A DNA stretch of 64,000 nt from a virus. Both the position numbers and the translations under genes were made by a program. Positions within the stretch are counted from its first letter, which is position 1. Every line of letters begins with the position of its first letter. The stretch spans positions 62,001 to 126,000 of the IMG/VR virus record IMGVR_UViG_3300036770_006893. One strand, given 5' to 3'. A model generated the notes under the pieces. That model did not search any database, had not been told where the DNA came from, and worked only from the letters and a program-made list of their open reading frames with translations. This document shows, in pieces, positions 17,162 to 42,853 of this stretch.

Positions 17162-20100
17162 ATGGCATTTAATCTTACGGCAGAAATTAATTTACGCGGA
17201 CCCAGCAACATTAGGAACGTTGTTTCTAATATTAGAAGACAGTTAAATTCTATATCTGTTGACGTATCTCCTTCGGTTAGGAACTCAGATATAAGGTCTA
17301 TAGCAACAACTATTAGATCTAGACTAGCTGGTATTAGCATACCAGTGAATATTGCTGCAAGTAGTTCTTCTATAAGGGCTGTGTCTAGAAATATAAGGAC
17401 TGGAATAGGTAACGTAAACATTCCGGTGTCTGTCAATGTTAGCCAAAGAAGCTTATCGGCTGCCAGAAGGGATATCAATGCCCGACTTAATAACATCAGA
17501 GCAAATGTCAATGTCGTTGTTAATCCCGTTTCAGTTAGAAGTGCTGCTGCTCTTAATGCCAATCTTACCAATCTTAATCAAACATTGACTAATGTCACCG
17601 CGTCAGCGACTTCAGCAGCTACGGCAATCAGAGATTTATCTGCTGCTATGAGAGCAGCTGGCGGAGGAGCAAATGCTTTAACCCAAATTAATACTGCTTT
17701 AAATGTTACTACCAATAATGCATCATCAGCAAATGCAAGCATTAGAAATATGTCCGGAGAAATAGAAAATTTCGGAAGACAAGCGGGATTAGCAATTAGA
17801 AGATTTGCCGCGTTCACTACTGTTACATCTGTTTTTTATGGCTTGGCTAGATCTGTACAGTCTGGACTATCGGCATTTATAGAATTTGATAGGCAGCTAG
17901 TTAGAATATCTCAGGTTACTGGGGATAGCTTAAGTAGTATAAAAAATCTTTCTAATAGTATAACCTCTTTATCTCAACTATACGGAGTATCTTCTGAAAA
18001 ACTAGCTGAAGTAGCTGTTGTGTTGGCTCAAGCTGGGTTATCTGCTAAAGAAACTCAACAGTCTCTTGCGTCTTTAGCAAAGACTACACTGGCTCCATCG
18101 TTTGATAATATTAACGATACTGTGGAAGGTAGTATCGCACTAATGAGACAGTTTGGAATACAAAGTAATCAGCTAGAGCAAGCATTGGGTTCTGTTAACG
18201 CGGTAGCAGCAAAATTTGCTGTGGAAGCTGGTGATATTATTGCAGCTATTCAGAGAACTGGTGGTGTTTTTGCAGCTGCTAGCAAAGGCGTAAGCGAAGG
18301 AACCGATGCTCTTAATGAATTTATTTCTGTGTTTACCAGCGTACGAGCCACTACTCGTGAAAGCGCAGAAACAATCGCCACAGGTTTAAGAACTATTTTT
18401 ACAAGAATACAAAGAGGCGGGACTATAGAAGCCCTAAAAGATTTTGGTATTAGCCTAACGGACGTCGAGGGGAAGTTTGTTGGCGCCTACAAGGCTGTAG
18501 AGCTATTGAGTACTGGGCTATCCAAATTAGACCCAAGAGATTTAAGATTTAGTCAAATCGTAGAAGAGCTCGGCGGCTTTCGACAAATTGGTAAGGTTAT
18601 TCCACTTATTCAACAGTTTGCTACGGCACAAGACGCTCTTCGAGTAGCACAAACTGGTGCTGGTTCTTTATCGGAGGATGCGGCAAAGGGTCAATTAGCA
18701 CTCGCTGTGCAGATAGCAAGAGTAAGAGAAGAATTTTTAGCTCTTATTAGAAGCGTTGGCGATACGTCTAGCTTTAGAACTTTGGTTAAATTAGGGCTAG
18801 ACCTGGCCAGCTCTCTAGTCCAGGTAGCAGATGCTGCAAAAGAATTGATCCCGCTTATAGGAGCATTTGCGGCTTTTCGTGGGGCTCAATCATTAACTAG
18901 GTTTGCTGCTGGCTTTGCTGGCGGAATCAGAGGTACTCCAGCAAGAGGTTTTGCTAGTGGTGGTTATGTTCCTGGGTCTGGCAATAGAGATACTGTTCCT
19001 GCTATGCTTACCCCAGGAGAATTCGTCATTCGCAAAAAGGCTGTTGAAAAAATTGGCGTCAGCAGTTTATCTAGATTAAATCGTAATAATGGCGGCCCAG
19101 TGCCCGCTCAATATTTTGAAGATGGCGGACAAGTACAACGGTTTGGCATAGGAGGAGTTGCCAAGAAAGGTGTAAACTGGAAAAATCTGTCTAAAGGCAG
19201 GGGTAAAAAAGGGCCTCGCGGACCACGAGCCAGATTTGATTTACCGCAACCAGGAGATGCAGACTTTGCTAAATGGCAACGTGAAGTATACGCAGAGTAT
19301 GATGCCGATCCTTCCTTGCCAAGAGTAAGAGTAAATGGTATACCAATGCCACCTGAAATCGCCTATGTCAATGAATTGATAGGAGAGGAGATTTTTAGGC
19401 AAAATTTTAGAAGCCGTAAAAGCAAAAAATCTGGCAAGCTTAAAAAAACACCGCTAGGATTAATAATAAGTGCCGCAAAAATGCCCAGAGGTCCACGAGC
19501 ACCAGCTGGTGAGATGGAAAAAATTATGGCTGGATATCAGCAATCTCCTGAGTTTCAGAAAGAAGCCGTCGGGGCAGGATCTTCCTTATTTTCAACCCTA
19601 AAAGGACCATTAGCATCTTTTAAGAAAGGAGGTACTTTTGGTGGTGTGATAGCTCCAGGCTCAGAAAATGCCACAAAGATAAAGGGCGCTTTAGCGAAAC
19701 TACTGAGTCAGTCATCTGGACAAGATGCTACTAAAGCTAAAACAGCACTAGATAAATTCGATTCATTTATAGCTGGTTCAACACCAGAAAAACCTGGACA
19801 CGTCTCCCATTTTACCTGGGCTATGAATCAGATATTCAAGAAAGGAATAGCAACGTTTGGTAGAGGAGGAAGAGCCTCAAGAAGAATGGGGGTTTTTGAT
19901 TTTGATATGACAACTGGAATAACGAAACAAAAAGAAACACCAAGCCTGTCTGGTTTTAGAGATCCAAAATTAGCAGTGCCAGATATACTAGGAGCAACTC
20001 CAACTGGCCTGGTTGGCCTTATGCGTAGATATGGTGCTTCACAAATTCTTACAGCACGATCCGGTGGACCAAGAGGGGAGATGAGAAGAGCTCTCGGCAC

Positions 20101-23100
20101 CTTTTTTAGACGAAGCGGAGTGATGTTACCGCAATCTAACATAATAACCCTCGGCGACCAAGTAGGATCTCTTAGTACAGCAGAGAAAAAAGCTAGGGCG
20201 CTCTATGCTATAGTTAAAAAATATGGAAAAGTTGATTTTTTTGATGACGACACAGCTAATATAGATGCTGCAAAAATGGTTAGGGGAGTAAGCGCCAGAA
20301 AAGTATCAGTAATGAAAAATTTGGGTGGCTTTGTTCAGAAGTTCATGGCTGGCAAAGCCGTAAAAAGAATGCCCGATTTGCCGCCTGATATTAAGGCGCT
20401 AATAACTAGAGAAGCGCGTCTAGGCATAGGCAAAGAAGACCCAGCACTACAATCCGCCTTATTAAATTTGGTAGCTAAGAGAAATAGATCTGTAGGAACA
20501 ACAGAATTAGCTAGTAGACTTGCGGGCTTAATCAAATCAAATCAATTAACTCCACGACTGGCTAATCAAATGCTGTCTACAGGAGGATTAGCAATACCTA
20601 CAGGACCAGGAGGTAAAACAACCATACAAGCATTATCTTTGGAGGCTCTAGGACCAAAAGACACAACCAAATACACAAGAAATATAGGAGGAAGAGAAAC
20701 AGATATTCTTAGAGCTTCTCCAACACCTGATTTATCAGCACGGCTGACTAGAGATTTAGTGCAAGGCACCAGAATAGGCATTGCTAGATTCATACGAACC
20801 GGATTAACAGAATATGCTATGCAGAGTCCAGAAAATAGACGGAGCCTAATTGATAGGGGAATTAAATTTGATAGCAAAGGCAGGGCAATACCCCCTAGGT
20901 CTGCTGTTGATGCTGCTATGTCGCATGGAGATGCTGGTAATTTTTTGGGCCCATTATTCGAAAAGGGAATCATTGGATTGGGAGCACAAGCTGGACCAAG
21001 CCTTCCTGGAAAAGCAGCACCGATAGACACATCAAGAGTCGGAGATATAGTAGCAAGCATTATGAGAGGAGGGGCGCCGATATCCGCTGAACTCCCAACA
21101 GAACTTAGGGCAGCCAAAGCTAAAACACGAGCATCAGCAGGTATTCCTAATATTAATAAAAGAGGATTAGTCAATCAAATATTGAGATTTTTTAAATTAC
21201 CAGGACTAAAGTTTGCGCAAGGAGGACTCGTTCCTGGTGTGTCTTCTTCACGAGCTAGAGAAGCTATATTAGGAAAACAGCTTAGTGGAGTTGAAATGAT
21301 CAGAGCCGCTAGGCGCGCTGGTTATGATATAGAAGAATTAGACAACGGATTGATTAGGTTATCTCGTAATAATAAGACTATGCACACACTGAGCCGACAG
21401 GAGGCGTCTAAGCTTCTGGGTAGTATGACTACTGGTTATAATCTCGGTGGAATGATACAAAAATTTGCTAGGGGGGGGTCTCCAAAAGATACTGTACCAG
21501 CACTGCTAACCCCTGGTGAGTTTGTAATTAATAAGAAGGCTGCTGCCAGACTAGGATCTAGTAAATTACATCGATTAAATAAAGCTGATAAAATTAGTGG
21601 CTTTAACACCGGAGGAGAAGTTGGTCGTGTGCCAACATTTTCTTCTGGTGGTGATGTTCAGAGATTCTTTTTTGGAGGAAGAGCAAGTGCTAGACCAGGA
21701 ACCGAGGCAAATACATCAAATCTTATGATAGCAGGAAATGTGACGACCCAACTTAGAGAGGTCGCTACTGCTTTACAAGAATTAGGCGCGGCTTCGTCTG
21801 CTTCCGCTGATATTTTAAGAAGAGGAGGTAGAATAAGCGTAGAGTCAGCAAATGCTGCTTATGAAGCTGATATACTAAGAATGAGAGTTGCCGGAGCGCC
21901 AATGGATGCTGTAATTCAGGCAGAAACACGTTTGGCAAATATGAGAAGACAAGCTCAGACTCAAGTAGCTGCACAAAGACAATTAGCCGGCGTTGGCGGA
22001 GCGCAACTAGAGAGAGTAGACACAACGGCCCAACAAAATATACAAAGAATGATACAAAGAGCCCAAAACTCTGGGGTTGATCTCAACGAAGCTCAAAGAG
22101 CTAGAATCGAAGATTTAGGATATCGTAGAGCGGCTCAAGCAGGAGGATTATCAGCAGCTCAAACTGCAGGTTTAAGTGGTAATGATATTAGGCAGTTTAT
22201 TAATAGCGCTATGGGAGATCCTAGAACATTCGAACAAATGAACAGACAGTTTGAGGCTAGAAGACGAGCTGAGTTAAACAATCAATATATTGCTGAAAAT
22301 AGATTTGGTGGTGATCGGAGACGTATACTGCAACAAGCGAGTAGAGATGCTGCTGAAGAAGCCAGAATACGAAGACAAACACTAAATCAAACACGAGGAG
22401 CAGCAGGCCCAGGAGGTACTCGTGGACAGCGAATGCAACAAGGTATGTTTGCGGCTAGTTTTGCACTACCCATGCTAGCACAAATGCTTGCTGGAGATCC
22501 TTCCAGAGCAACTAGTGCTGGTGGAGCCGCAATGTCTGCTGGTATTCAGGGTGGTGCTAATGCTTTAGCTTTGGGTACAATGTTATCAAGCCTCGTCCCC
22601 CCAGGACTGCCTCAAGTTTTTGTCGGCGTTGCAACAGCTGCCGGGGCTGTGGCTCAGGGATTTATAGATGCGCGTAATGCGACTATAGAATTTGAAAAAA
22701 ATATGTCAGCTAAAAAAGTGGAATTTGCGATAGCCGACACGGTAAGGCTTTTTGATAAACTGTCTAAAGATATTAAAAATATAGATGTTCAAAACGCTAT
22801 AGGTGATAAGCTAGTAGAAGCCGCCAAAGCCGCAGAAAGATCAATAGAAATTCAATCCAATACAGCCAGAGCATTTTGGATAAATATGATAGATGCTTTT
22901 GCTTCAAACGGTAGAGAAGCAGCACAAAGGGCCCAAATTTTAGAAAAATATGGAACCACAGCTTATTTATCAACAACTACTATAGGCCAATCTTTTATGG
23001 GAGGTTCTGGAACAGCGCAACAAAGAGCTGAACGCCGCAGGTCTAACTTTGCTATGGAAATGGCTCCAGAGCAAGCTAGAGAAATTTCTAGACAATTTTC

Positions 23101-26100
23101 TGAAATAGCAGATAGTTCAAACAAGCTTTTAGAAGAAAAAATTCGTAGTGGATTAAATATTGAGCAGTATATAAATACAGATGAATTTAAGGGTCTTAGC
23201 CAAGCAATAGCACTATCAAATGCCGCTATTGCTGAACAAATTCTCAATATTAGAGCCAGTACTGTTTTGACCCAGGCTCAAAAAACAGCACAAGAAAAAC
23301 TTATTATATCAACATATGCTGAACAAGAAGCGCGTAAAAGAGCAGCTGCAATAACGAGAGAGCTTGAAATAAAACAGGCCCAAAAAGTTGTGAATCAATT
23401 GGCTCGGTCTTTGGATCGTATGTTTGGTAATATGGAACAGGCTATAAATAAGACAAATTTTGCACTAGAAAAAATGAGTCGAGATTTGGATCTGGTTTCA
23501 TCCTCTCTAACCGGACAGGCTAAATTAGGTGAAAGATCAATACAGGCGATTAATGTATTGCAAAACCCTAGAGCCTATGGCTCCGGAGAATTGAATATGG
23601 CTCGCGGTCAAGCTGCTGGATTTTTTGGAGATAGTGGAAATATCATTCGTGGACTATTGACTCTTGGAGATGATATTGAAGCTAATATAATGGGCACTAT
23701 TAATAGGACATTAAGAGATACTAGAGATGATTCTCCTGGTAAAATAGCTATAGCTATACAAAAATCCGTTAAGGAAAAATTAGCAGGGCTAGCTTTACCA
23801 AAAGATCTATCGGATAAATTAGCTCGTGAAGTATCCAAGGCTCTAGAAGAAATACGTAAAGATGGTGAAGACCAAGCGGATTTTACACAGCTGGAAGAAA
23901 AACTACAAGATTTAAACAAAATTATTGATAGTACAACGAAAGCTCAAGACATAGCTATTAAAGCGTTAGAAACATGGCAAAATGCTCTAAATTCATATTC
24001 TTCTTCTATGAATTCTTTGGTCGATCTACAAATAGACTATCAGTCCAGACTAAGAACCAGTAATGATATTCTTTTGGATGGTCAGGCATCATTAGCTAGA
24101 TCTCTCGGTAAAGATATTGGACTGGAGTCTATAGCTAATCGACGCAATTTAAGAATTGCTCAACAAACTGGAGGAGCTACGGCCCCACAGGATATTTTTC
24201 GCAACATAAATAGACTAGAATTATTGAGGGCGCAACAAGAAAACGCTTCGAATGTAGCTGCTCAAAGAGGCCCATCTGGAGCTAAAGATTTTGTAGAAAT
24301 GCAAAATAACCTTAGGTCTACTAATGTTGCACTAAGAGAAAATTTTGATGCGCTAAAAAATCTTGCTGAAAATTCCGATTTAGCATCAGCCGCTCTTAAT
24401 AAGATACAAGAAGCACAACAAAGACAACAGGGAAAAGTTTCTTTTATCGAAAAGCTTGTGACCTCAACACCAGAAGAATTAAGTGGACTCAATCGAGCTT
24501 TCGTAAGACTGCAAAACAATATTAATGGTCAGGTTAATACTATCAATAATAGTGTTGGTGCCCAACGAGCCTATATTGAAGCCATCAGAAGTGGATCCAA
24601 TGCTTTTGAAGCTATGAAGGCTGCGCAAGATGCTTTTGCGAACGAAAGAAGAGAGACTCTGTCGGCTCTAAATGATATACTACCATTTTTAGGAGGAGGA
24701 AATAAAGCAAATCAAATAAGAGCCAATACTTTAGAATCAATGCTAGCTGAGTCTGGTGTTGGTGTCTCTCCTATGTTTCAAGATATATTAAACTCTCTTA
24801 GAGATCCAGAACTAGATCCAGAAACACAAAAAGCCATTGCTCTTTATGAACAGGCCAACATTCTTCAGGTTAAGGCCAACGATTTTCTTGCTCAAATTAA
24901 TCTAAAACTAGGTGAACAAACAGCAGAAGCAGCAGCCAAAGCTATAGCAACGGCTCTTTCTTCTGTGGTGCTAACATTCAAAAATGCTGAACAAGCAGAC
25001 ATAAATAGAGGACTTATTCCACAAAATAGAGCTAAAGGAGGAATAATTTATGCCTCCAAAGGAGTTTTTGCACCAAAAGGAACAGATACTGTTCCAGCGA
25101 TGTTAACTCCTGGAGAATTTGTCGTTAATAAAAATGCTACAGCAAAAAATTTACCTCTATTAAAAAGCATTAATAGCCAGACTCTTAGTTCTGGAGGTAA
25201 AGTAAAGTATTATGCTCGTGGAGGCTTAGTAAGTAGTTACTTAAGTACCAACGCTCAGTCTAGGGACGATTTTCAGCAAACAAAAGACAAATTTCTAGAT
25301 CTTTCTGAAAATGAACAACTATTTCAGGATGTGTCAAAGACATCACTATTTAGATTACCAAGCACATATATCAGAAAACCACAAGCTGGATTACAAACAC
25401 CCAGTAAATCATCTCCCGCAAGAGAAAGATACGATGATCGGCCAAATAAATATCGCTTAAAAGAATTATATTCTAATTCTGGAGAAATACTACCAGGATA
25501 CGTAACTAGTAAAATAGATTTAGGCCCCTATTATTATAGTGTTCCGTCTATGGCTACGGTCGCTAACAGAGAACTAGGCAAGTATTTAGAGCCTGTTAAT
25601 TTGATTCCTGCTGGTATTAAAACCACAATTTTAGGACTAGACTCCACAGATTTAGACATATCGTCTAAAAAATATAGCAAAAAAGATTTTGCTGAATATA
25701 AGAAAAAATTAGAGACGTTAAATATAGAAAGATTTAATTGGATTAACAACCCAGCAAGCTTTGCGCTCAGAGCATTAGAGGGTGTTACACAAGAATATCC
25801 TTCAAATATAGATCCAACCGCTTTAAACAATAGATTTTTTGATCCTAATTCTAAGCAAAAGCTAAGCTCTATCTATCCATCAGATGCAGGTCTCAGAACT
25901 TCTTCTGTTCCTTTTAAATATGCTAAAATTTTATCTGACAACCGATCTGATTATTTCGGTATTACTACTGGTTCAATAGGAACAGAGCCTCCAAATGGAG
26001 ATTTTTCATCTGGCCCCACTTTATCTAAAACAATAGATACAATGTGGGCTAAGGTATGGAATATAGATAAAAATAAAGCTTTGTCTCCACAGAGAGCCAA

Positions 26101-29100
26101 AGATATACTTAACTATAATCGCAAACAATTTAAGCTTATAAATAAAACTGTTCAAGCAGCTAAAGATAATTTTAAAGATATAGAGCTAGAAGATTCTGGC
26201 GAATTAAAAGACTATTTTGAGCTACAGCAGCAGTTGGGTAATCTATATAATAATTTTTCTATATACGAGGACTTTAATAAGCTGGATTTATTTGCAAATC
26301 CGCTATTATCTAATGCTAAATCACTAACAGTATTGTCTAATACTTCTGTTGCTAGATCAGATCTAAAAAAATATATCGAAAACCAACAAGCCCAGCTCGC
26401 TCAAGGAGTCGCCCCAGACAATAACGATAATCCAATCCTTATTGGTCTTAGAGATCCGCTTCCGCCAGATCTACAAGACGCAACCAACAAGTGGGTTAAA
26501 AAAACTGAATTTGATATTTTTTCTAGAGATGGGACCGGCCCAGTCAAAACTTTCCCATTCTTAATTAATGCAGATGCCAGAGATTTAGGCGAGGGTTTTA
26601 TGAAGAGAGCCGCTGTTGCTCTACAGGCCCAAAAAGATGCTATAGAAACAAGCATGGTAATAGATAATAATAAAATGACGCTTACGCTTGGCGCCGGTAA
26701 GAACATAGAGCTCCCCTATTCTGCAACATACACAAAATATAGTGGTCCTTTGTGGGATTTAAACAATAATACTTTTAGTGATGATAAAAATAAACAGCTC
26801 AAAGATTTATTCCTTCCAGATAAGGGTGCTGAAAATTCTATTTTTTCTAGTTTAGATACTAATGGAAGTAGATTATTTAAAAGGGGTGGTGTTTTTGATC
26901 TAAATAATATTCAACAAAGTATACCAGCTGACAATATCAATAAATTAATAGATTTGGTAAAAAATAATTCTGAACAAAATTTAATAGATAAAGAAATACA
27001 AAATATAAAAAATCAATCATCATTAACATTTAGACATATTGGAGATAATCAGGGATCACTAATTAAACTACAAAGAGCTATTGGTAAAGAAGTTTTTGTA
27101 GGCTATTCTCAATTAGCAAACACACCTGTTGATTTTGGAGCGTTTGTTGCTCAAGGTGTTATAGACTATGCTAAAAATTTAAAACAAGAAGCTGGAATAG
27201 CAGCTGGTCGTGCTCAGGGAGCAGATGATCAAGACCGAGTAGTATCAGATGTTCCGATGGCATTGCAACAACTAACAAAAGGAGCATTGAATGTATTTGG
27301 TAGAAGGCCTATTCCAGGTATAGGTCGTGGATGGCTAGCAAATAACATAAGACCGCTTATTGGATTAATGTCTAGACAGGGTCGCGGCAGAGCACCCGGT
27401 CTTACTAACGATCAAGCTAGAGGAGCATCTGCGTATATTAGAGATGTGATGAATAATGTTGGTGGATATGTTAATCAAATATCCGGAAGAGTATCCAATC
27501 CTGTGCTATACAATAGCTTAAAGGATACTTTAATTCTTATACAAGGTGCCTATAAATCATTTGATGCGCTGGCCAGATCAGATAGTGCAGATTTAGCACA
27601 AATGCTGAAATCTAATCTGGATCCAGAATCTATATTCCGTAGTTTTGGTTCTGGTGCTATGCTTGATAGAATAGCCATGAGCGAACTATCTGGCGACTAT
27701 AAGAATATTCTTGGTCAGCAGCTACGTGGGTCAAAGATAGCAACGGTTGGTGATAATGGCGATATTAAGCTACAAGAAGCGGCCAATCTTGAATTTAGAA
27801 ACTATAAAGACTTAATCAAATTGGCCATCAACCCGTATAATGAGTTTTCTTCTGTAAAAACTAGAAGAGGTATTTTTGGTAAGCTTACGAACGATATTTC
27901 TGGTGCTGTTGATAATAGGGGTATGCCTTATTTTGATCCTAACACACTCAATTTCTTATTAACTTCGCTCAATCAGCTAGATAAATGGTATGGTGGTGTT
28001 GGTCCTTGGCTAGGTCAAGACTATCTCTTTGATAAGACCTTAGACCCGGATCCTGCTACACGATCTCAAAAATTCCTGGCTAGTTTGCAGAAGGCCCAAG
28101 GAATATATGAATTATCTAATGTTGCCTATCAAAATCTTGGTGGGGCTGGTAAGTTTGGTCCAGTTTTACCAAATAAAGAATGGTTTCAAAATCGTATAGA
28201 TGCTGGCAACTTTGCTACCGGCGGTATGGTTTATGCGTCCGGTGGAACACTAGTTAACTATCAGCCACGAGGCACAGATACTGTTCCTGCTATGTTAACT
28301 CCGGGAGAGTTCGTGGTCAACAGATCTGCTACAAGAAAAAACCTGCCACTATTACAGCAAATTAATAGCGGTTACTTAGCAGAAGGCGGTATGGCCGAAA
28401 GTGCTGGTGTTAGTAGATTAAGATGGACTCCAGAAGGACGAACACGAGCTATAGAACAAAAGGACACAATCACCCCAAAACTAAACAATATAAATAAAAA
28501 CGTTCTCAATAATTTTACTAGTATTACATCTATTCAAAAAGATATTAAAAATATTAAAGATAGCATAAATAACAATACGCAATCTTTACAACAAACTATA
28601 AGCCTACTAAATATTAAATTTACTGAATTACAAAACCTATCTCAAGCCTTGGCTCCGTTTGTTTATAGTCAGTTACTGGTGGCTTTAAGAAATTTCTGGA
28701 GTAGTTTAGGAACAGCCATTATAACACAGGGACTCGGTAATGGTGCGCCATGGCCTCCTGCTCCGTTTAGCGATGGAGGAATTGTATATGCTAGCAAAGG
28801 ACAGCTCATTAATTTTCAACCAAAGGGAACCGATACTGTCCCGGCAATGCTTACTCCGGGCGAGTTTGTTGTTAATGCTAAAGCAACTAAAAATAATTTG
28901 GGATTATTACAAAGTATAAATAATGGAGTTGGTGGGTATAATAGGGGTGGAGTGGTTTATTTGGAAGATGGCGGCTTAACTCCTGGAGCAAAACAATCAT
29001 TAATAGACTTACAAAATCAAGGATATAATTTACAAGATATTGTATCTGGTAAAACAAGAATTCCTGGTATTATAGTAGAGACATCTAAAAAACAATATGA

Positions 29101-32100
29101 TCCTATGATGCCAACAAAACCGGCCCCAAACATAGAAACATATAGAGAAAATCCAAAATTATGGAACGGATTTAAAGACTCTAGTGGTTTTTGGTGGAAT
29201 AAAAGAGGAGAATCTGTCATAAGCGCATATGGGACTCCCCCAGTATTGCCAAATTTTCAAGAAAGAATGCAAGCATTTGAGTCTATTGTAAGTGCTTTTG
29301 CCGGGGCGGGCGGAGTAGGAGGTGGTCGCGGAAAACTAGCAGATGTTCGTGGCCTGCCTGCTGGAATGCCAATGCAGAGAAACGCTCCCGGACCATTAGG
29401 AACTAAAGTCGCTATTCCATATCTTATTGGTAGACCAAATCCCAATAATGCACCAAGAGCTAATTCAATGGGTCTCACATTAGACGCGATTAGAGATCCG
29501 CTAACAGGAAACTACTACGTATCAGATACTCCCGCAAGAAATATTACTATTTCTGGACGCCAAGGATTACCAGCGCCAAAAACTAGACAAAGAACAAAAT
29601 CACCTCTAGATTTAGAAAATGGTAAAATACCAGATTCTATTACTAATCCCAAATCCAAAGAATTTATGCATCTTGCGATAAAAGAAATGATTGGATATAC
29701 TGAATTCATGAATCTGGTTAAGCTAAAAGTACAAAGATCAGATAGGACATACTCTAGCTTATTAAAATTTTTAGCCTTAGATATATTTCCAAAAGGAAAT
29801 GCTTATGGAGTTGATTCTCTAGATAAAGCTATTTCATTTTTTAATACTCCAGAAGGTATAGAATTATATAATACAAAAATATCTCCAAAAATAGGCGTTG
29901 TTCCAGAGATAGGTGGATATAACGCATCTATAATTAATCAAAATTCTAAAACAGGTGGCGGAGGCATTACAGGAAGACTATTAAAAGAATTATTTCAACA
30001 AAATATATTTCATATTAGTAAAAGATCAGCAAATGTTCCAGACGATCTTAATTCCAGAATGGCGTCGTTGATTCCCCCAACAGCTGGATTGCTATATGAT
30101 GACAATATAGCAAAACTATTATCTTCCGCTGGCGTTACGCCAAAAGTAGATTCGAATAGAGTTAGTTATGTATTTGATGTCGCTGAAGCAGGGAAAGACT
30201 GGGGGTTACTTACTCCAGATCAAAGGGCCCATCTACAACAATTTGCTCCAAAAGCAACTGGCAGCGAATCATCTAATATGAAAAGAGGTCAGCTTAGGAC
30301 ATCATCCAGAGAAAGATTAGGTGATGGGCCGCCTAGCTTATCGAAATTTGGAACAGCCACTCCTAAAAAATCTTTTCACGGATCAGGATCAGAAATTATT
30401 CAAGTAGACCCAATGAAGCTGAACCAGGGTATGCTTGGTGAGGGTTTTTATGTGGGTTTTGATGCTAACGAAGCACCTATTAATTTTTTAAAGATGAGAT
30501 TAGACAGCTGGTTACTAGCTAACAAGCTAAAACCAGGAAATATTACACCAGAGCAATTAGCGCAATTTAAGGGTGGTATATATCCAGTTGATATATTAGG
30601 AGGCATTGATGACTTTTTGGCTGCTGATCAAATTCTAAAAGACAATCCGGCAGCGTTAGCAAAAATAGAAAATATATACAAAGACTTAGGACTAAGAAAA
30701 GTTTCTCTTGGACCAATAGAATATAAAAATGATCCAACGACAGGAAGAGCAAAAGCAGTAAGAACAGAAGGACCGCTTGATCTACCATCTGCCACAGTTA
30801 TGCAGGTTTACGACAATATTCAAAACCAGCTAGCAGCTAAATATGAAACTGAATTTGCTGGTAAATCCAATATTCCTGATCCAAGATTTGAGGCGCTCAC
30901 AAGATCAGCTACAGATATGAGAAATATATTTGTAAAATATGGCATACCCGGATTTACCGATTTAAATAATGCTCGTAGTCAAGGCTCGATGGCAGCTATA
31001 TTTGATTTGAATAGAATTAAATTAGGTAAGGCATATATTCCTGATAAAATACTCAAAGAAATAATGATGCCCATTGATCAAAATACTTATAAAGATATTG
31101 ATGGCGACTTAGAAATATTAGAATCTGTAAATAAAAAGAAAGGAGGTATAATTTATGCTAGCAAAGGCCAGTTTATAAACTTCCAACCTCGTGGCACCGA
31201 TACTGTTCCCGCAATGTTAACGCCTGGAGAATTCGTAGTTAACCGAACGGCCACACAGAAAAACCTACCTCTGTTAAAAGCTATTAATAGCGGTGTTGAC
31301 GGATATAGCAATGGAGGAGTTGTTTATTTAGCTGCTGGTGGCAGGCCACAGCGTACAACTCGAGATAAAAATAAGCTTGATATTAGAGAAATAGATAATA
31401 GATTCAGGTCGCAAATGACCAGTCGCAATGCTCAACAAATGGCCGAGGCCGCCGCAAACAGAGAAGGCAAGCTATGGGTATTCATGGTTAAGACTAGAGA
31501 TAATAATGGCGCAGAAACAACGGGCTTTTTAACAAAGGATCCTAATAACCCCAATCAGCCGGCACCAAAAAATATTCCGCCACAAACAGAATCTTTACTT
31601 GCGAATAGACTAGATGAAATATTTACTCTAAGAGCAAGAAATGAAAAAGAGGCCATGGATGCCTACAAAGAGATGAATGTAGCCGGACTGTTACCTGAAG
31701 TCAAACCAGCCTCAGCTCAACAAGCACTGAACAAGGCTAGAAAAAAATGGATGCAGCAACCACTATATGCCAAGATTTTTGATGAACTAGCTTATCAAAT
31801 TAATTTAGATCGAAATCAATTTAGCATATTTAATCCTGATTTCTTCAATCGAAATGTTAATGTTGATGAAAATATAAAGCCAATTATGGCTATTGTTGAT
31901 AATATGGATCCCAACAACCCCGCATCTGTTGCTTTGGGCGTTCCAGCAATATTAACTAAATTAAGACCAATAGTTCAAAGAATTAATTATTTGCGACACA
32001 TTATTAGAAACAATGAGCAGGCCCTAACAGCAGTTAAGAGTGCGATAGCCTCAGGCCTAAATATAAACGATCCTGCTAATATGAGAAAAGCTTTCGAAGG

Positions 32101-32965
32101 CAATCCTGCTACAAAAATTAATGAGGAACAACTTAATGGCGCCAAGCCCGAATTGGCTGGTGGTGAACAAGTATTAAATAAGCTTGGAACTAATCCTGTA
32201 CTAGCTAATCTTGGACGAGATCCTAGGTTTAAAGAGATAGTATCCACGTTTGGTTATGGTCCAGGAGTGGCTGTATCCACATTTGAGCGCCGTGTAGAGC
32301 AGATGGCTGCTCCACCAAAACTACTAGCCTCTGGTGGTAGAGTTACCTATGCTAGTAACGGACAGCTTATTAATTTCCAGCCACGGGGTACCGATACTGT
32401 ACCAGCTATGTTAACACCAGGAGAATTTGTGGTTAATCGCGAAGCGGCCAATAAGCACTTGTCTCTATTGCAAGCTATTAATAACAATAATTTTGCAAAT
32501 GATTCTGTTTTAACTTTAAGTCGAGGTGGTTTTATTTCCCCAGCATATTTACGTAATGGTGGATCAGCACCCTCTTTGGCCGGTTTATCTGATATGGTAT
32601 CAAAACTTACTCAGAGCATACAATCAGCAGTAGAAACAGCTATAACCAAAGCTTTTGAAAATTCTGAGCTATTGCGATCTAATTCTAGCGATGGTGTATC
32701 TGATAATGGTGCTGTTGTTGATCAAATAGCGGCGTTTACTAGAAATTTGGGAGATTTGGCGAATCGACTAGAGACGATATCTGTACCACCAGAAATCACT
32801 ATACAAGGACGACAAGACATCAATGTTAACGCTAATGGATTACAGGTACTTTCCAGTCTAGACCCATCTATGAAACAGCTCGCTATGAATATGATCAAAA
32901 CCGCATTTGATAATTTGGCCACAAAAAATCCCGGAACTTTAGATTTTAATGTAGACTATCCATAG
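17162..32965 (+). CDS. Giant tail tape measure protein, 5267 aa
   Basis: This gene is 15.8 kb without a stop. Residues ~16-124 are four ~27-residue repeats of an IRxxxxxIRxxL helix plus a PVNV strand. Residues ~225-515 match the TP901-type tape measure core (FIEFDRQLVRISQVTG, AVVLAQAGLSAKETQQSLAS). Seven Gly-rich cassettes carrying DTVPAMLTPGEFVV follow at intervals. Long helical/coiled-coil stretches (residues ~1450-2600) include hydrophobic segments near 1762-1780 and 1817-1836 that could cross or insert into a membrane. Two enzyme-like modules are embedded: HAD-like (~905-1040) and ADP-ribosyltransferase-like (~4395-4630). Known role: sets tail length, chaperoned in the tube, ejected before DNA. 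At ~0.15 nm per residue the ruler could give a tail near 790 nm, less whatever the inserts do not contribute. A GGGGAAAG ribosome site precedes the ATG. Confidence 0.95.
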   Translation: MAFNLTAEINLRGPSNIRNVVSNIRRQLNSISVDVSPSVRNSDIRSIATTIRSRLAGISIPVNIAASSSSIRAVSRNIRTGIGNVNIPVSVNVSQRSLSAARRDINARLNNIRANVNVVVNPVSVRSAAALNANLTNLNQTLTNVTASATSAATAIRDLSAAMRAAGGGANALTQINTALNVTTNNASSANASIRNMSGEIENFGRQAGLAIRRFAAFTTVTSVFYGLARSVQSGLSAFIEFDRQLVRISQVTGDSLSSIKNLSNSITSLSQLYGVSSEKLAEVAVVLAQAGLSAKETQQSLASLAKTTLAPSFDNINDTVEGSIALMRQFGIQSNQLEQALGSVNAVAAKFAVEAGDIIAAIQRTGGVFAAASKGVSEGTDALNEFISVFTSVRATTRESAETIATGLRTIFTRIQRGGTIEALKDFGISLTDVEGKFVGAYKAVELLSTGLSKLDPRDLRFSQIVEELGGFRQIGKVIPLIQQFATAQDALRVAQTGAGSLSEDAAKGQLALAVQIARVREEFLALIRSVGDTSSFRTLVKLGLDLASSLVQVADAAKELIPLIGAFAAFRGAQSLTRFAAGFAGGIRGTPARGFASGGYVPGSGNRDTVPAMLTPGEFVIRKKAVEKIGVSSLSRLNRNNGGPVPAQYFEDGGQVQRFGIGGVAKKGVNWKNLSKGRGKKGPRGPRARFDLPQPGDADFAKWQREVYAEYDADPSLPRVRVNGIPMPPEIAYVNELIGEEIFRQNFRSRKSKKSGKLKKTPLGLIISAAKMPRGPRAPAGEMEKIMAGYQQSPEFQKEAVGAGSSLFSTLKGPLASFKKGGTFGGVIAPGSENATKIKGALAKLLSQSSGQDATKAKTALDKFDSFIAGSTPEKPGHVSHFTWAMNQIFKKGIATFGRGGRASRRMGVFDFDMTTGITKQKETPSLSGFRDPKLAVPDILGATPTGLVGLMRRYGASQILTARSGGPRGEMRRALGTFFRRSGVMLPQSNIITLGDQVGSLSTAEKKARALYAIVKKYGKVDFFDDDTANIDAAKMVRGVSARKVSVMKNLGGFVQKFMAGKAVKRMPDLPPDIKALITREARLGIGKEDPALQSALLNLVAKRNRSVGTTELASRLAGLIKSNQLTPRLANQMLSTGGLAIPTGPGGKTTIQALSLEALGPKDTTKYTRNIGGRETDILRASPTPDLSARLTRDLVQGTRIGIARFIRTGLTEYAMQSPENRRSLIDRGIKFDSKGRAIPPRSAVDAAMSHGDAGNFLGPLFEKGIIGLGAQAGPSLPGKAAPIDTSRVGDIVASIMRGGAPISAELPTELRAAKAKTRASAGIPNINKRGLVNQILRFFKLPGLKFAQGGLVPGVSSSRAREAILGKQLSGVEMIRAARRAGYDIEELDNGLIRLSRNNKTMHTLSRQEASKLLGSMTTGYNLGGMIQKFARGGSPKDTVPALLTPGEFVINKKAAARLGSSKLHRLNKADKISGFNTGGEVGRVPTFSSGGDVQRFFFGGRASARPGTEANTSNLMIAGNVTTQLREVATALQELGAASSASADILRRGGRISVESANAAYEADILRMRVAGAPMDAVIQAETRLANMRRQAQTQVAAQRQLAGVGGAQLERVDTTAQQNIQRMIQRAQNSGVDLNEAQRARIEDLGYRRAAQAGGLSAAQTAGLSGNDIRQFINSAMGDPRTFEQMNRQFEARRRAELNNQYIAENRFGGDRRRILQQASRDAAEEARIRRQTLNQTRGAAGPGGTRGQRMQQGMFAASFALPMLAQMLAGDPSRATSAGGAAMSAGIQGGANALALGTMLSSLVPPGLPQVFVGVATAAGAVAQGFIDARNATIEFEKNMSAKKVEFAIADTVRLFDKLSKDIKNIDVQNAIGDKLVEAAKAAERSIEIQSNTARAFWINMIDAFASNGREAAQRAQILEKYGTTAYLSTTTIGQSFMGGSGTAQQRAERRRSNFAMEMAPEQAREISRQFSEIADSSNKLLEEKIRSGLNIEQYINTDEFKGLSQAIALSNAAIAEQILNIRASTVLTQAQKTAQEKLIISTYAEQEARKRAAAITRELEIKQAQKVVNQLARSLDRMFGNMEQAINKTNFALEKMSRDLDLVSSSLTGQAKLGERSIQAINVLQNPRAYGSGELNMARGQAAGFFGDSGNIIRGLLTLGDDIEANIMGTINRTLRDTRDDSPGKIAIAIQKSVKEKLAGLALPKDLSDKLAREVSKALEEIRKDGEDQADFTQLEEKLQDLNKIIDSTTKAQDIAIKALETWQNALNSYSSSMNSLVDLQIDYQSRLRTSNDILLDGQASLARSLGKDIGLESIANRRNLRIAQQTGGATAPQDIFRNINRLELLRAQQENASNVAAQRGPSGAKDFVEMQNNLRSTNVALRENFDALKNLAENSDLASAALNKIQEAQQRQQGKVSFIEKLVTSTPEELSGLNRAFVRLQNNINGQVNTINNSVGAQRAYIEAIRSGSNAFEAMKAAQDAFANERRETLSALNDILPFLGGGNKANQIRANTLESMLAESGVGVSPMFQDILNSLRDPELDPETQKAIALYEQANILQVKANDFLAQINLKLGEQTAEAAAKAIATALSSVVLTFKNAEQADINRGLIPQNRAKGGIIYASKGVFAPKGTDTVPAMLTPGEFVVNKNATAKNLPLLKSINSQTLSSGGKVKYYARGGLVSSYLSTNAQSRDDFQQTKDKFLDLSENEQLFQDVSKTSLFRLPSTYIRKPQAGLQTPSKSSPARERYDDRPNKYRLKELYSNSGEILPGYVTSKIDLGPYYYSVPSMATVANRELGKYLEPVNLIPAGIKTTILGLDSTDLDISSKKYSKKDFAEYKKKLETLNIERFNWINNPASFALRALEGVTQEYPSNIDPTALNNRFFDPNSKQKLSSIYPSDAGLRTSSVPFKYAKILSDNRSDYFGITTGSIGTEPPNGDFSSGPTLSKTIDTMWAKVWNIDKNKALSPQRAKDILNYNRKQFKLINKTVQAAKDNFKDIELEDSGELKDYFELQQQLGNLYNNFSIYEDFNKLDLFANPLLSNAKSLTVLSNTSVARSDLKKYIENQQAQLAQGVAPDNNDNPILIGLRDPLPPDLQDATNKWVKKTEFDIFSRDGTGPVKTFPFLINADARDLGEGFMKRAAVALQAQKDAIETSMVIDNNKMTLTLGAGKNIELPYSATYTKYSGPLWDLNNNTFSDDKNKQLKDLFLPDKGAENSIFSSLDTNGSRLFKRGGVFDLNNIQQSIPADNINKLIDLVKNNSEQNLIDKEIQNIKNQSSLTFRHIGDNQGSLIKLQRAIGKEVFVGYSQLANTPVDFGAFVAQGVIDYAKNLKQEAGIAAGRAQGADDQDRVVSDVPMALQQLTKGALNVFGRRPIPGIGRGWLANNIRPLIGLMSRQGRGRAPGLTNDQARGASAYIRDVMNNVGGYVNQISGRVSNPVLYNSLKDTLILIQGAYKSFDALARSDSADLAQMLKSNLDPESIFRSFGSGAMLDRIAMSELSGDYKNILGQQLRGSKIATVGDNGDIKLQEAANLEFRNYKDLIKLAINPYNEFSSVKTRRGIFGKLTNDISGAVDNRGMPYFDPNTLNFLLTSLNQLDKWYGGVGPWLGQDYLFDKTLDPDPATRSQKFLASLQKAQGIYELSNVAYQNLGGAGKFGPVLPNKEWFQNRIDAGNFATGGMVYASGGTLVNYQPRGTDTVPAMLTPGEFVVNRSATRKNLPLLQQINSGYLAEGGMAESAGVSRLRWTPEGRTRAIEQKDTITPKLNNINKNVLNNFTSITSIQKDIKNIKDSINNNTQSLQQTISLLNIKFTELQNLSQALAPFVYSQLLVALRNFWSSLGTAIITQGLGNGAPWPPAPFSDGGIVYASKGQLINFQPKGTDTVPAMLTPGEFVVNAKATKNNLGLLQSINNGVGGYNRGGVVYLEDGGLTPGAKQSLIDLQNQGYNLQDIVSGKTRIPGIIVETSKKQYDPMMPTKPAPNIETYRENPKLWNGFKDSSGFWWNKRGESVISAYGTPPVLPNFQERMQAFESIVSAFAGAGGVGGGRGKLADVRGLPAGMPMQRNAPGPLGTKVAIPYLIGRPNPNNAPRANSMGLTLDAIRDPLTGNYYVSDTPARNITISGRQGLPAPKTRQRTKSPLDLENGKIPDSITNPKSKEFMHLAIKEMIGYTEFMNLVKLKVQRSDRTYSSLLKFLALDIFPKGNAYGVDSLDKAISFFNTPEGIELYNTKISPKIGVVPEIGGYNASIINQNSKTGGGGITGRLLKELFQQNIFHISKRSANVPDDLNSRMASLIPPTAGLLYDDNIAKLLSSAGVTPKVDSNRVSYVFDVAEAGKDWGLLTPDQRAHLQQFAPKATGSESSNMKRGQLRTSSRERLGDGPPSLSKFGTATPKKSFHGSGSEIIQVDPMKLNQGMLGEGFYVGFDANEAPINFLKMRLDSWLLANKLKPGNITPEQLAQFKGGIYPVDILGGIDDFLAADQILKDNPAALAKIENIYKDLGLRKVSLGPIEYKNDPTTGRAKAVRTEGPLDLPSATVMQVYDNIQNQLAAKYETEFAGKSNIPDPRFEALTRSATDMRNIFVKYGIPGFTDLNNARSQGSMAAIFDLNRIKLGKAYIPDKILKEIMMPIDQNTYKDIDGDLEILESVNKKKGGIIYASKGQFINFQPRGTDTVPAMLTPGEFVVNRTATQKNLPLLKAINSGVDGYSNGGVVYLAAGGRPQRTTRDKNKLDIREIDNRFRSQMTSRNAQQMAEAAANREGKLWVFMVKTRDNNGAETTGFLTKDPNNPNQPAPKNIPPQTESLLANRLDEIFTLRARNEKEAMDAYKEMNVAGLLPEVKPASAQQALNKARKKWMQQPLYAKIFDELAYQINLDRNQFSIFNPDFFNRNVNVDENIKPIMAIVDNMDPNNPASVALGVPAILTKLRPIVQRINYLRHIIRNNEQALTAVKSAIASGLNINDPANMRKAFEGNPATKINEEQLNGAKPELAGGEQVLNKLGTNPVLANLGRDPRFKEIVSTFGYGPGVAVSTFERRVEQMAAPPKLLASGGRVTYASNGQLINFQPRGTDTVPAMLTPGEFVVNREAANKHLSLLQAINNNNFANDSVLTLSRGGFISPAYLRNGGSAPSLAGLSDMVSKLTQSIQSAVETAITKAFENSELLRSNSSDGVSDNGAVVDQIAAFTRNLGDLANRLETISVPPEITIQGRQDINVNANGLQVLSSLDPSMKQLAMNMIKTAFDNLATKNPGTLDFNVDYP
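18959..19085 (+). repeat. TPGEFV cassette 1 (tape measure)
   Basis: Encodes GGYVPG, then RDTVPAMLTPGEFVIRKKAV and SLSRLNR. This is the divergent, short form without the YAS strand; it lies between the core domain and the region leading to the HAD-like module. Confidence 0.85.
19871..20290 (+). other. HAD-superfamily-like domain inside the tape measure
   Basis: All main HAD signatures are readable: motif I VFDFDMTTG (D913, D915, T917), motif II ILTAR (T964), a Lys-containing helix (STAEKKARAL) near 1004-1013, and motif IV DFFDDDTAN (D1028-D1030). Spacing between motifs suits a compact, uncapped HAD fold. Family role: phosphatase or nucleotidase chemistry through a phospho-Asp. Its substrate is unknown; it may be an active enzyme delivered by the tail or a structural remnant. 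Confidence 0.65.
21468..21600 (+). repeat. TPGEFV cassette 2 (tape measure)
   Basis: Encodes ARGGSPKDTVPALLTPGEFV then INKKAAARLGSSKLHRLNK. It resembles cassette 1 more than the later YASKG forms, giving an early pair (1-2) and a late group (3-7). Confidence 0.85.
25032..25200 (+). repeat. TPGEFV cassette 3 (tape measure)
   Basis: Encodes KGGIIYASKG, GTDTVPAMLTPGEFVVNKNA and LPLLKSIN. First of the late group; it precedes a ~1000-residue unrecognised segment. Confidence 0.9.
28217..28395 (+). repeat. TPGEFV cassette 4 (tape measure)
   Basis: Encodes GGMVYASGGTLVNYQPRGTD then TVPAMLTPGEFVVNRSATRK and LPLLQQINSG. It is followed by a ~125-residue coiled-coil-like segment. Confidence 0.9.
28771..28955 (+). 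repeat. TPGEFV cassette 5 (tape measure)
   Basis: Encodes DGGIVYASKGQLINFQPKGT, TVPAMLTPGEFVVNAKATKN and LGLLQSINNG. It precedes the segment that contains the ADP-ribosyltransferase-like module. Confidence 0.9.
30345..31065 (+). other. ADP-ribosyltransferase-like domain inside the tape measure
   Basis: Residues ~4395-4630 follow the pattern of ART/PolyVal-type mono-ADP-ribosyltransferases: an initial strand KSFHGSGSEI with H4406, then LGEGFYVGFDANEAP with Y4430, and a final VKYGIPGFTDLNN then AAIFDLNRIKLGK strand, the usual closing element of this fold. Known family chemistry: transfer of ADP-ribose from NAD to protein, nucleic acid or small molecules. The third catalytic residue (Glu/Asp/Gln) cannot be assigned by eye. 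It sits between cassettes 5 and 6. Confidence 0.6.
31141..31330 (+). repeat. TPGEFV cassette 6 (tape measure)
   Basis: Encodes KGGIIYASKGQFINFQPRGT, TVPAMLTPGEFVVNRTATQK and LPLLKAINSG. It immediately follows the ADP-ribosyltransferase-like module. Confidence 0.9.
32332..32500 (+). repeat. TPGEFV cassette 7 (tape measure)
   Basis: Encodes GGRVTYASNGQLINFQPRGT, TVPAMLTPGEFVVNREAANK and LSLLQAINN. Last cassette, ~155 residues from the C-terminus of the tape measure. Confidence 0.9.
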
Positions 32966-32974
32966 GATAATTTT

Positions 32975-35900
32975 ATGAATCAACCAATACAAATTTATAA
33001 TAACATAGGCTGTGAGTTTATTCTAGACAACAATAATTTTATTATCGGCACAGCTTTAAAAGGCTATAATACTCTCGATAATAATCATGTGGGTAGTTAT
33101 ATTCCCTATTTAGTAAGAAATATATCTAGAGATCAGATTATAGCATGGGAGATAGGGGTTGGGTTTGTAGAGAAGGCTGATAGTAAGATCATAGTTTCTA
33201 GACATAATGTAATACAGTCATATGGGTCGATTGAGTCCCCCGGACAAAAAAACTTCTATTTATTTGCTAATGCCGATGGCTATAATAGTGGATTCAACAA
33301 CGTTGTTGTTGCAACAAGCGATTTTTTTGCTGGGACATCCAGAGCCTGCTACTTAATAGAAAAAAACGGTATCACTAAAGTCAAACTAATTGATCCAGCC
33401 AAAGCTAAATCTGTAGAACTTCAATTTAAGATTATATCTAGCGATGAAAATAGTGTAGTAGAGATATCTGATGACCACAGTTTTCGCTATGTGTTAAAAT
33501 ATAATCAAAAATATCTATCTATAGTCTCCGATGGAAGTAAGTGGAGGATATTACTTAGTCCATCATCTAATAGTAGCAATATGCTCTCAGCACTATCTGC
33601 CTCAAGCGATTTTTCTATACTTGGTGATCCAGCCGGAGACGATGGGTCATTTCAGTACAAGGTCGGAACTAGTTTTTCTGGCGGTCCCGTATATTTAGGT
33701 TCTGATGATAAGATTCTTTTTGGTCCTGATAGCATAGAATCTAACGCTAAAAGCATTATACCAACTTCTGGTAATTATGACACCATCATTAATAATACTA
33801 AAAATAAATCGGACTTTATTGTTCATGGAAGTGGTGTGCCAGATGGTTATCTACCAAAAAATCTTATTTTCACCTATGATGGTAAGCTTGGATTAAATCT
33901 CCCTTCTGGGGCTAAGCCACAAACTGCTCTTCATATAATCAACAATTCTTGCAGAGAAAGCATCAGGATCGAAAATCTCAGCGACTGTCCAACGCATATA
34001 CCCAACGTCACACTATATCACAAGCCATCTGGTGTTTCTGATGATACTATTATAAGTAAAGTTGTTTTCGCTAGTCGCGACTCCAATAATAACAAAAAGG
34101 ATTATGCTGTACTACAGACAACCGCTCAAAAAGTTGATCCGTCGGATGCTACTGGAAAGTTTGACTTGATTTTGGCGTCCGGATATCAGAGCGTAAACAC
34201 ACTTTCTTCCGATCCGTTGTCTACTGTTTTAGGCTATTTATCTGATTACTATTTGGTTGCTAACAGCACATCTGGTATTCGAATGATAGCACCCAGATCA
34301 AATAATCAAATTTTTGTATCAGATAGTTTAGCTGGTATGTCAGGTGGTATTGTATCAGTTTCTGGAGGTAGTGCTGTAAATATCACCTCCACCGGAACCA
34401 TAAATCTTAATCAAGCCGTTATTATTAACGGTATTAATATTGGTATGCCTTATATTGAACAAAATAAAGTATTAGCAGTTAATTCTCAAGGTTTACTGGC
34501 ACCAGCTACTAATTTCACTATTAATGGCGTAGGATCAAATAAACTATTGACTACTGACGCTAGTGGTGTTGTTACTGGTGCTTATAGTGACGATTCATTT
34601 TTGCTCACAGATGGCGACATAACATGGAGTAAATTTCCTCCTAGACTAGGCAATGTTTGTTTGAGACAAATTACTCCCATAGAAGATTTTCCCGTTAACG
34701 AATTTGCTGTAGGAGATCAGCTAGCAATAGTAACAGGAGTTGCACCAAATCAAGGCACCATATATCGCAATATAACTTCTATAGACAGAACAGATGATCT
34801 TATTAGCTATATCTTATTAGATCAAAACGTTACAACTATTGATTCTACCATATTTTGTTATTCGATCACCAAAGGCGGCGTGTTAACTATTCAGGTTAGA
34901 ACAGAAGACGGCACAGAATCCCAGGCTACTGCCACCATATTAAGCACAAGACCAGACACAAACACAGTGTTCAATACTAAACAAAAAAATATTAATTTCA
35001 CCGTATATGGTATTGAGGACACCCCAGCTCTACATATTATGGCCAAAGCAACTACGGTGCCTGTAAATTCTGGAGTTTATAACAAATTTGCTACTATCGA
35101 TGAGCCATTTGCTAGCATACCGAATCCACTAGGAGTAGGAATAGGTACTTCTCACAACAGTGTTAATTTTGCCAATATCCCTTCTGATTTATGGCTAAAC
35201 AAAGTTACATCTGTTGGTACTAATGGTAAGCCAAGTTTCTACGGCACATATGATCAAAACGGAAATGTTTACGAATGGGTAGAAGACACAAACCCAGCAT
35301 CTATATCGATAAACCAGAATGTTTGCGGTGGCTCATGGAAAACTTTAACTGCTGAGGGTTTGAGGAGTGTAATTTCTACACCAGCTAATTTAGCCTTAGA
35401 AGATGTTGGATTTAGAATATGTTCTAGATATGGTTATTCTGATGATGCGATATCGCCAACCATCGGACTTTCTTTTGTTGCTGTTTCTAATTTAGATAAT
35501 ATAGAAGACAACTCTTTTATATATACAGAATCATACTCTAATCGAGACGAATTAAATCTTCCTCCCGTACCATCATCTATTATTAATTTGGGCAAGGTTC
35601 AGCATCCATATCGCATATCGACATACGAGATTACCAACGCTCAATATATTAAATTTTTAAACTCGGTTAATAAAACTGCTATTTTCGATCTGTATAACGA
35701 TAATATGTCATCCGCTATAGTTGGTGGAATACTGAGGTCTGGTTCTGATGGCGACTATGTTTATACAACCAAAACCAACATGGGCGACAAGCCAGTTGTG
35801 TATGTAAATTACTTAAGCGCTATCAGGTTTATCAATTGGTTGCATAACGGTGCTCCCGATAGTGAAAATTTTGAATTAGAAGATATCGAGGATGGTGCGT

Positions 35901-42160: not shown

Positions 42161-42853
42161 ATGAGAATAATTTTTTCAAATTTTGCCGATAGAATTGTTA
42201 AATTGTGCTGCTCCAAATCTAATAATCCAGACCTTCCTCCAGAATGTCTGGAAGATGTTTTTCCCTCGCCTAGTCCCTCCCCAACTCCATCTGTGACGCC
42301 ATCAATCACTCTATCTATTACGCCGTCCATGACACTATCCGTCACGCCTTCTATGACGCCTACGCCATCACCTACCCCAAATGTTGTGTTGCCACCAACG
42401 TCCTATGTTTGCGATCCTTCTGATAATTTTTGCTTTTCTGCACTAGAGCCACTTAACTGTGGCTGTGTATTTAATGCTCCTGAGGTCTATGTTTCTGGAG
42501 AACAGTCCGGTTCGATATGGCGAAGAGTTTCAGTTTCATATAATGGCCCAGATGGTCAGTGCGACAATAATGGTGACTGCTCTATGATCGTCATCCGTGG
42601 TTCTGTGTCAATTAGATATCCTGGTTCTCCGCTATCAAATTGGATCATAGGCGAAAAGGTAGATATGGTATTAGGATACGCTCCCAGCTTTATAAATACG
42701 TTTGGATATATATGTGGCACAACACTAATATCTTCAAACGAGGGTGTATACGAAGGCATAGTCCTTAGGTGTACGCCACCCGCCCAACCTCCTGATCAGC
42801 CAGATCCTCCAGACACATCTAATTTAAGCGTAGTATTTATGAGGGCATTATGA
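42161..42853 (+). CDS. Virion-type protein with Ser/Thr/Pro linker and Cys-rich C-domain, 230 aa
   Basis: A 230-residue protein in three parts: an N-terminal ~35 residues with CC and a basic helix, a Ser/Thr/Pro repeat linker at ~38-80 (units such as TPSMTLSV and PTPSPTP), and a compact Cys-rich beta domain at ~85-210 (FCFSALEPLNCGCVF, DGQCDNNGDCSMIVIRG). A second Pro-rich stretch precedes the end. There is no true signal peptide. Its design (anchor, flexible linker, head) suits a flexible tail-tip decoration. The linker Ser/Thr could be glycosylation sites. The family is unknown. Confidence 0.55.
   Translation: MRIIFSNFADRIVKLCCSKSNNPDLPPECLEDVFPSPSPSPTPSVTPSITLSITPSMTLSVTPSMTPTPSPTPNVVLPPTSYVCDPSDNFCFSALEPLNCGCVFNAPEVYVSGEQSGSIWRRVSVSYNGPDGQCDNNGDCSMIVIRGSVSIRYPGSPLSNWIIGEKVDMVLGYAPSFINTFGYICGTTLISSNEGVYEGIVLRCTPPAQPPDQPDPPDTSNLSVVFMRAL

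Follow-up and report, generated by a model that had tools for sequence, protein, structure and literature searches.

Phage ADP-ribosyltransferases (ARTs) that are injected into the host are known from T4 Alt and have been predicted for polyvalent proteins (PMC5512222). The polyvalent-protein ARTs are defined by a histidine in strand 1, a tyrosine in strand 2 and an aspartate in strand 5 (Iyer et al., PMC5512222); their prototype lies in the virion RNA polymerase (vRNAP) of Roseovarius Plymouth podovirus 1 (CBX87992.1; PMC5512222). In phages studied so far, the tape measure, normally a protein that does no more than set the length of the tail, fills the tube; in SPP1, it is discharged from the tail tube before the DNA, and may form a membrane pore (PMC8718954). 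In Streptomyces contractile systems, tape-measure-related proteins are ejected as effectors, and a globular domain has been proposed to refold afterwards (PMC13277306). In this study, an ART-like domain was found inside the tape measure protein (TMP) encoded by bases 62001-126000 of a 224,357-base IMG/VR virus record (IMGVR_UViG_3300036770_006893); this whole stretch of 64,000 nucleotides is called the window below. The domain and its carrier are as follows:

17162..32965, + strand: TMP, 5267 residues in a single open frame (open reading frame and translation; PhageMin_Tail PF10145; PHROGs; relatives with open reading frames of similar length in other assemblies)
30365..31066, + strand: ART-like domain, approximately residues 4402-4635, with H4406, Y4430 and D4615 (profile comparison with polyvalent ARTs; homologues in G017 and G001; substitution rates)

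The 5267-residue protein combines a tape-measure domain (PhageMin_Tail PF10145, E 4e-23), the size of a tape measure and a position in the tail cluster, and it matches several PHROGs tape-measure families with E values down to 3e-23. Tail-type genes lie 3' of it, including one for an 1875-residue fn3 minor-tail-like protein. A sequence-only reading had placed an ART-like domain at 30345-31065, citing the motifs FHGSGSE, GEGFYVGFD and FDLNRIKLG. All three do lie within the tape-measure frame, and the numbering of H4406 (nucleotides 30377-30379) and Y4430 (30449-30451) was correct, but the start at 30345 is out of codon phase; in frame, the domain covers about 30365-31066. Homologues occur in the tape measures of two related records: G017 (75% identity over 270 residues, E 5e-138) and G001 (a protein of more than 6800 residues; 25% identity, E 3e-11). 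H4406, Y4430, D4600 and D4615 are invariant in the three-way alignment; neither close homologue has lost a catalytic position (H, Y or D). Between the window and G017, the ratio of nonsynonymous to synonymous substitution rates (dN/dS) was 0.096 for the domain and 0.198 for the whole tape measure, values that are approximate because such pairs have high dS. The domain is therefore under purifying selection and is being maintained.

A query profile built from the window domain and its two homologues was compared with a reference set of 12 polyvalent ARTs, consisting of the Roseovarius prototype domain and relatives from phages, plasmids and IMG/VR. The hhalign comparison gave a score of 40.3 (probability 82%, E 1e-5) and paired KSFHGSGSEIIQVDPMKLNQGMLGEGFY with QLYHGTGSRFEQFDVRKVGKNLKDKSGLF across the H-strand and the Y-strand, whereas the maximum among 150 column shuffles was 20.4 and the reversed alignment reached 11.7. 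This indicates, at the level of sequence profiles, that the resemblance of the domain to polyvalent ARTs is beyond chance. In strand 1, H4406 within FHGSG is aligned with the known polyvalent ARTs; in strand 2, Y4430 within GEGFY is aligned with their F/Y. When the TMP was tiled, scores above 15 appeared solely in the two tiles that overlap the ART-like domain. A hidden Markov model (HMM) of the 12 ARTs was also run on 56 tape measures of the same group. The top three matches were L153 (5.4e-5), L150 (1.8e-4) and the G001 domain (7.6e-4), compared with a best E of 0.011 among 560 shuffled or reversed control sequences; the G001 match is located at the first strand, and those in L153 and L150 are other cassettes of HG type. 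The ART-like assignment is thus supported from two sides, by the profile comparison and by the detection of the G001 homologue. The profile search against ART-PolyVal families that had been suggested for this domain succeeded with the 12 polyvalent ARTs and failed with Pfam: ART-PolyVal PF18760 gave no match at E <= 10 in the window's own record or in seven relatives, and the controls were themselves detected only below the cut-off. A profile that included G001's own domain reached a probability of 96.6%; being circular, it was not counted.

The embedding of the domain in the tape measure is supported, and ARTs are recurrent in the same protein across this phage group. IMG/VR holds at least 405 contigs related to the TMP backbone. 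In all, 56 tape measures were extracted, some incomplete at the edges of the 20-kb stretches taken, and 46 remained distinct after near-identical ones were merged. At least one ART-like cassette is present in 14/46, a figure that describes this set, drawn by similarity search, and not a population frequency. Histidine-type cassettes occur in seven of the 46 (window, G017, G001, L150, L153, L161 and L178), and another version of this type in the protein family keeps the canonical HG and GxGFY motifs. ARTs of the Alt/VIP2 type (PF03496) were found by local HMM in nine of the 46, including L146, L150 and L157; PF03496 exceeded Pfam's cut-off in the tape measures L028 (twice), L144, L151, L161, L162 and L176. 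A whole-record search placed PF03496 in 9 of 50 records, six of them above the cut-off, in open reading frames of 3437-7737 residues; no match above the cut-off was found in the window's record (G000). The Alt/VIP2-type copies retain STS and E-x-E, with LYSG or similar as the first motif instead of the usual arginine motif. Two ARTs each are carried by L150, L028 and L161; in L150, an Alt/VIP2-type and a histidine-type cassette stand in tandem (residues 1871-2010 and 2043-2184).

The window's own version of the domain is rare. When viral and bacterial genomes were scanned, G017 and G001 were the sole relatives found, and the profile of the three matched none of 50 further records, so that the close family is narrow (three records). 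No convincing match was obtained by tblastn against isolate phages with the domains of the window, G001, L144, L151 and L153.

Similar to the Tox-ART-HYD2 polyvalent ARTs, the window domain has HG[ST]G in its first strand, Gx[FY] in its second and, as aligned by eye, an aspartate in the terminal strand, and it is embedded in a very large multi-domain virion protein, which in the window's TMP carries ART-like and HAD-like motifs. In contrast to them, its carrier is a tape measure and not a head-packaged protein of vRNAP type, an insertion of about 90 residues lies inside the fold, the glutamate of E-x-M is missing, and PF18760 does not detect it. T4 Alt shares the concept of an injected ART, and its VIP2 clade (PF03496) is the one seen in 9/46 of the related tape measures. 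However, Alt is a free head protein with an R-S-E active site, and belongs to a different clade from the window's H-type. Enzyme domains within tape measures, with peptidoglycan-degrading motifs, are known from mycobacteriophage TM4 and from the transglycosylase yomI of SPbeta; these act on the cell wall, whereas an ART requires nicotinamide adenine dinucleotide (NAD) and therefore points to the cytoplasm. The Streptomyces contractile injection systems (Sle1, Tme; PMC13277306) also combine a tape-measure-like scaffold with a variable ejected effector domain, but they are not phages, an ART is not reported there, and the effector is C-terminal rather than set in internal cassettes.

We favour, with modest confidence, the reading that the TMP is a cargo polyprotein carrying a divergent histidine-type ART cassette that is released into the host early. 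The ART-like domain would be one exchangeable cassette of a mosaic tape measure, which would be packed in the tail tube and discharged on host binding. After discharge, the cassette would take up its fold in the envelope or cytoplasm of the host, possibly once it has been cleaved off the backbone. The ART could then use cytoplasmic NAD to ADP-ribosylate a molecule of the host at the very first step of infection, as is known for T4 Alt coming from the head. By analogy, a pre-loaded effector entering the host before the DNA, as the sequence-only reading had proposed, is plausible. The delivery reading gains strength from the fact that two different ART clades recur within one and the same protein. 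Enzyme domains of two clades in one structural protein also argue for selection on ART activity rather than on tail length.

Several observations weigh against this reading. Only the beginning of the domain, about 28 residues, is covered by the profile match. The window domain had no useful match in Pfam, PHROGs, NCBIfam or PDB sequence searches; AlphaFold models from the three-sequence alignment were of low confidence, with a mean pLDDT (predicted local distance difference test) of 59 for the window and 48 for G001; and Foldseek found nothing significant for the better model among PDB structures and viral models. The glutamate of E-x-M is replaced by Gly/Ser in the window and in G017. Finally, a folded domain of 25 kDa is too big for a tail tube a few nanometres wide, so that unfolding or removal would be required. 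The best viral Foldseek match (E 2.4e-3, probability 0.96, TM 0.26) was to a fragment of a large protein and was not used.

The missing library and structure matches would fit a convergent similarity of motifs in a domain of another fold. So would the closing strand, which the profile comparison does not support: the likeness between the segment GIPGFTD...SMAAIFDLNRIKL and the ART ending GYDGAV...EYVAFDPEQIVI is one seen by eye alone, and D4615, invariant in the three homologues, is aligned with strand 5 of the known ARTs likewise by eye only. Nevertheless, we consider convergence very improbable, given that the profile score is twice that of the best shuffle and is located uniquely in the TMP, and that ARTs of two clades sit in the variable cassettes of the relatives.

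The lost glutamate may bear on activity. In the region of the last strand it precedes a methionine by two positions (GEIMVV in the prototype, GEPMVS in G001), and it is also present in several known relatives; because it is lost in the window, ADP-ribosyltransferase activity of the domain is uncertain. A domain of ART ancestry that is no longer an enzyme, and serves the tape measure as a structural or binding spacer, would account for this loss in the window and G017, for the long insertion within the fold and for the narrow distribution of this version (three records). It would not lead one to expect that H, Y and D are kept under strong purifying selection (dN/dS 0.096), or that canonical motifs (STS with E-x-E; HG with GxGFY) survive in at least two further ART versions of this protein family. 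An inactive spacer therefore appears fairly unlikely, although it has to be taken seriously.

The size of the tail tube bears on delivery. Related tape measures range from about 2000 to 7737 residues, more than threefold, which is a problem for a fixed tail length; the frames of 7737 residues, in G025 and G027, carry a PF03496 ART and are the longest seen in the set. This range is hard to square with a fixed tail length unless the cassettes are cut from the tape measure while the tail is being assembled or earlier, to work within the producing cell or as virion proteins of their own, in which case the tail would not be the delivery route. Folded domains too large for the tube would be explained in the same way, and the tail cluster also holds a gene for a possible agent:

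42850-44286: trypsin-like protease (below Pfam's cut-off; PHROG protease E 9e-9)

This protease is a mere candidate for releasing cassettes from the backbone. A cassette acting in the producer cell would not need fusion to a tape measure; we judge such excision improbable. If, as in the favoured reading, the cassettes are delivered, few phage effectors would act earlier, and protein delivery in ordinary phages would run through the tail tube as well as from the head. The passage of enzyme domains through a tube a few nanometres wide is the physical question that this raises.

The architecture of the tape measures is that of conserved blocks alternating with variable cassettes. A repeat, GGxxYAxxG...GTDTVPAMLTPGEFVVN, punctuates them, and the backbone is studded with a repeated DTVPAMLTPGEFV motif that is found at cassette borders. 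The PGE core of this motif has 163 copies in 56 proteins, compared with 0 in shuffled sequences, and seven copies lie in the window's TMP. The repeats and segments of the window are:

17759..18721, + strand: conserved N-terminal backbone block, residues 200-520 (59-80% identity to the 13 tape measures aligned with it)
18989..19030, + strand: PGE repeat motif copy 1, residue 610
19892..20341, + strand: HAD-like segment in another variable cassette, residues 911-1060 (motifs VFDFDMTT, ILTAR and FFDDDTAN by eye, without Pfam support)
21488..21529, + strand: PGE repeat motif copy 2, residue 1443
25085..25126, + strand: PGE repeat motif copy 3, residue 2642
28277..28318, + strand: PGE repeat motif copy 4, residue 3706
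28775..28891, + strand: repeat unit GGIVYASKGQ...GTDTVPAMLTPGEFVVN that opens the ART cassette, residues 3872-3910 (PGE motif copy at residue 3891)
29039..30301, + strand: segment directly upstream of the ART in the same cassette, residues 3960-4380 (91% identity to G017)
31142..31261, + strand: repeat unit GGIIYASKGQ...GTDTVPAMLTPGEFVVN that closes the ART cassette, residues 4661-4700 (PGE motif copy at residue 4680)
32393..32434, + strand: PGE repeat motif copy 7, residue 5078

Repeat copies at residues 3891 and 4680 flank the window's ART, whose end lies about 26 residues short of the second unit; a repeat also follows directly on the H-type cassette in L150 and L153. Possible roles of the DTVPAMLTPGEFV repeat are those of a linker, of a recombination site, or of a signal for processing or folding. 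Within the ART cassette, residues 3960-4380 have a dS of 0.49 between the window and G017, compared with about 1.4 elsewhere in the TMP; together with the 91% identity, this suggests a recent exchange of the segment between the two lineages. The HAD-like segment has a dN/dS of 0.086; its module is also found in G017 and L165, and different DFDxT segments occur in L032, L034 and L178. EF-hand domains were seen in two variable cassettes of related tape measures (best E 2e-9).

For this large uncultivated phage lineage as a whole, the tape measure may be a general cargo carrier, in which a conserved, DTVPAMLTPGEFV-studded backbone holds interchangeable cassettes, among them ARTs of two or more clades and HAD-like segments. 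Travelling in the tail tube, the cassettes would be set free in the host ahead of the genome, and the tape measure would be a tail-borne counterpart of the head-packaged polyvalent proteins. We put this wider proposal forward tentatively, as somewhat short of an even chance. When domain mosaicism was surveyed in phages, genuine recent cases could not be confirmed for tape measures (PMC10684548); the 46 compared here show mosaicism that involves recognisable enzymes. The paper on polyvalent proteins does not mention tape measures (PMC5512222), and text searches of titles, abstracts and passages in the open-licence literature did not turn up an ART described within the tape measure of a phage. 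Injected head ARTs (T4 Alt, polyvalent proteins) and the early exit of tape measures, which are the first to leave the tail, are known separately, and none of the papers found joins them; the novelty is a polyvalent-type ART in a new carrier.

As to the tail itself, Phage_sheath_1 had no match anywhere in the window's record, and a siphovirus-type tail is therefore likelier. The nearest isolate relatives of the backbone include yomI of SPbeta (about 26% identity). The 1875-residue fn3 tail protein (32975-38602) contains an FGE-sulfatase domain (E 2e-11) and a purple acid phosphatase N-terminal domain (E 3e-9). Upstream in the tail region, 7195-7995 encodes a sulfotransferase-family protein (PF13469, E 1.4e-14), and the product of 10109-11167 carries a C-terminal proprotein convertase P-domain (PF01483, E 9e-8), which is unexpected in a phage.
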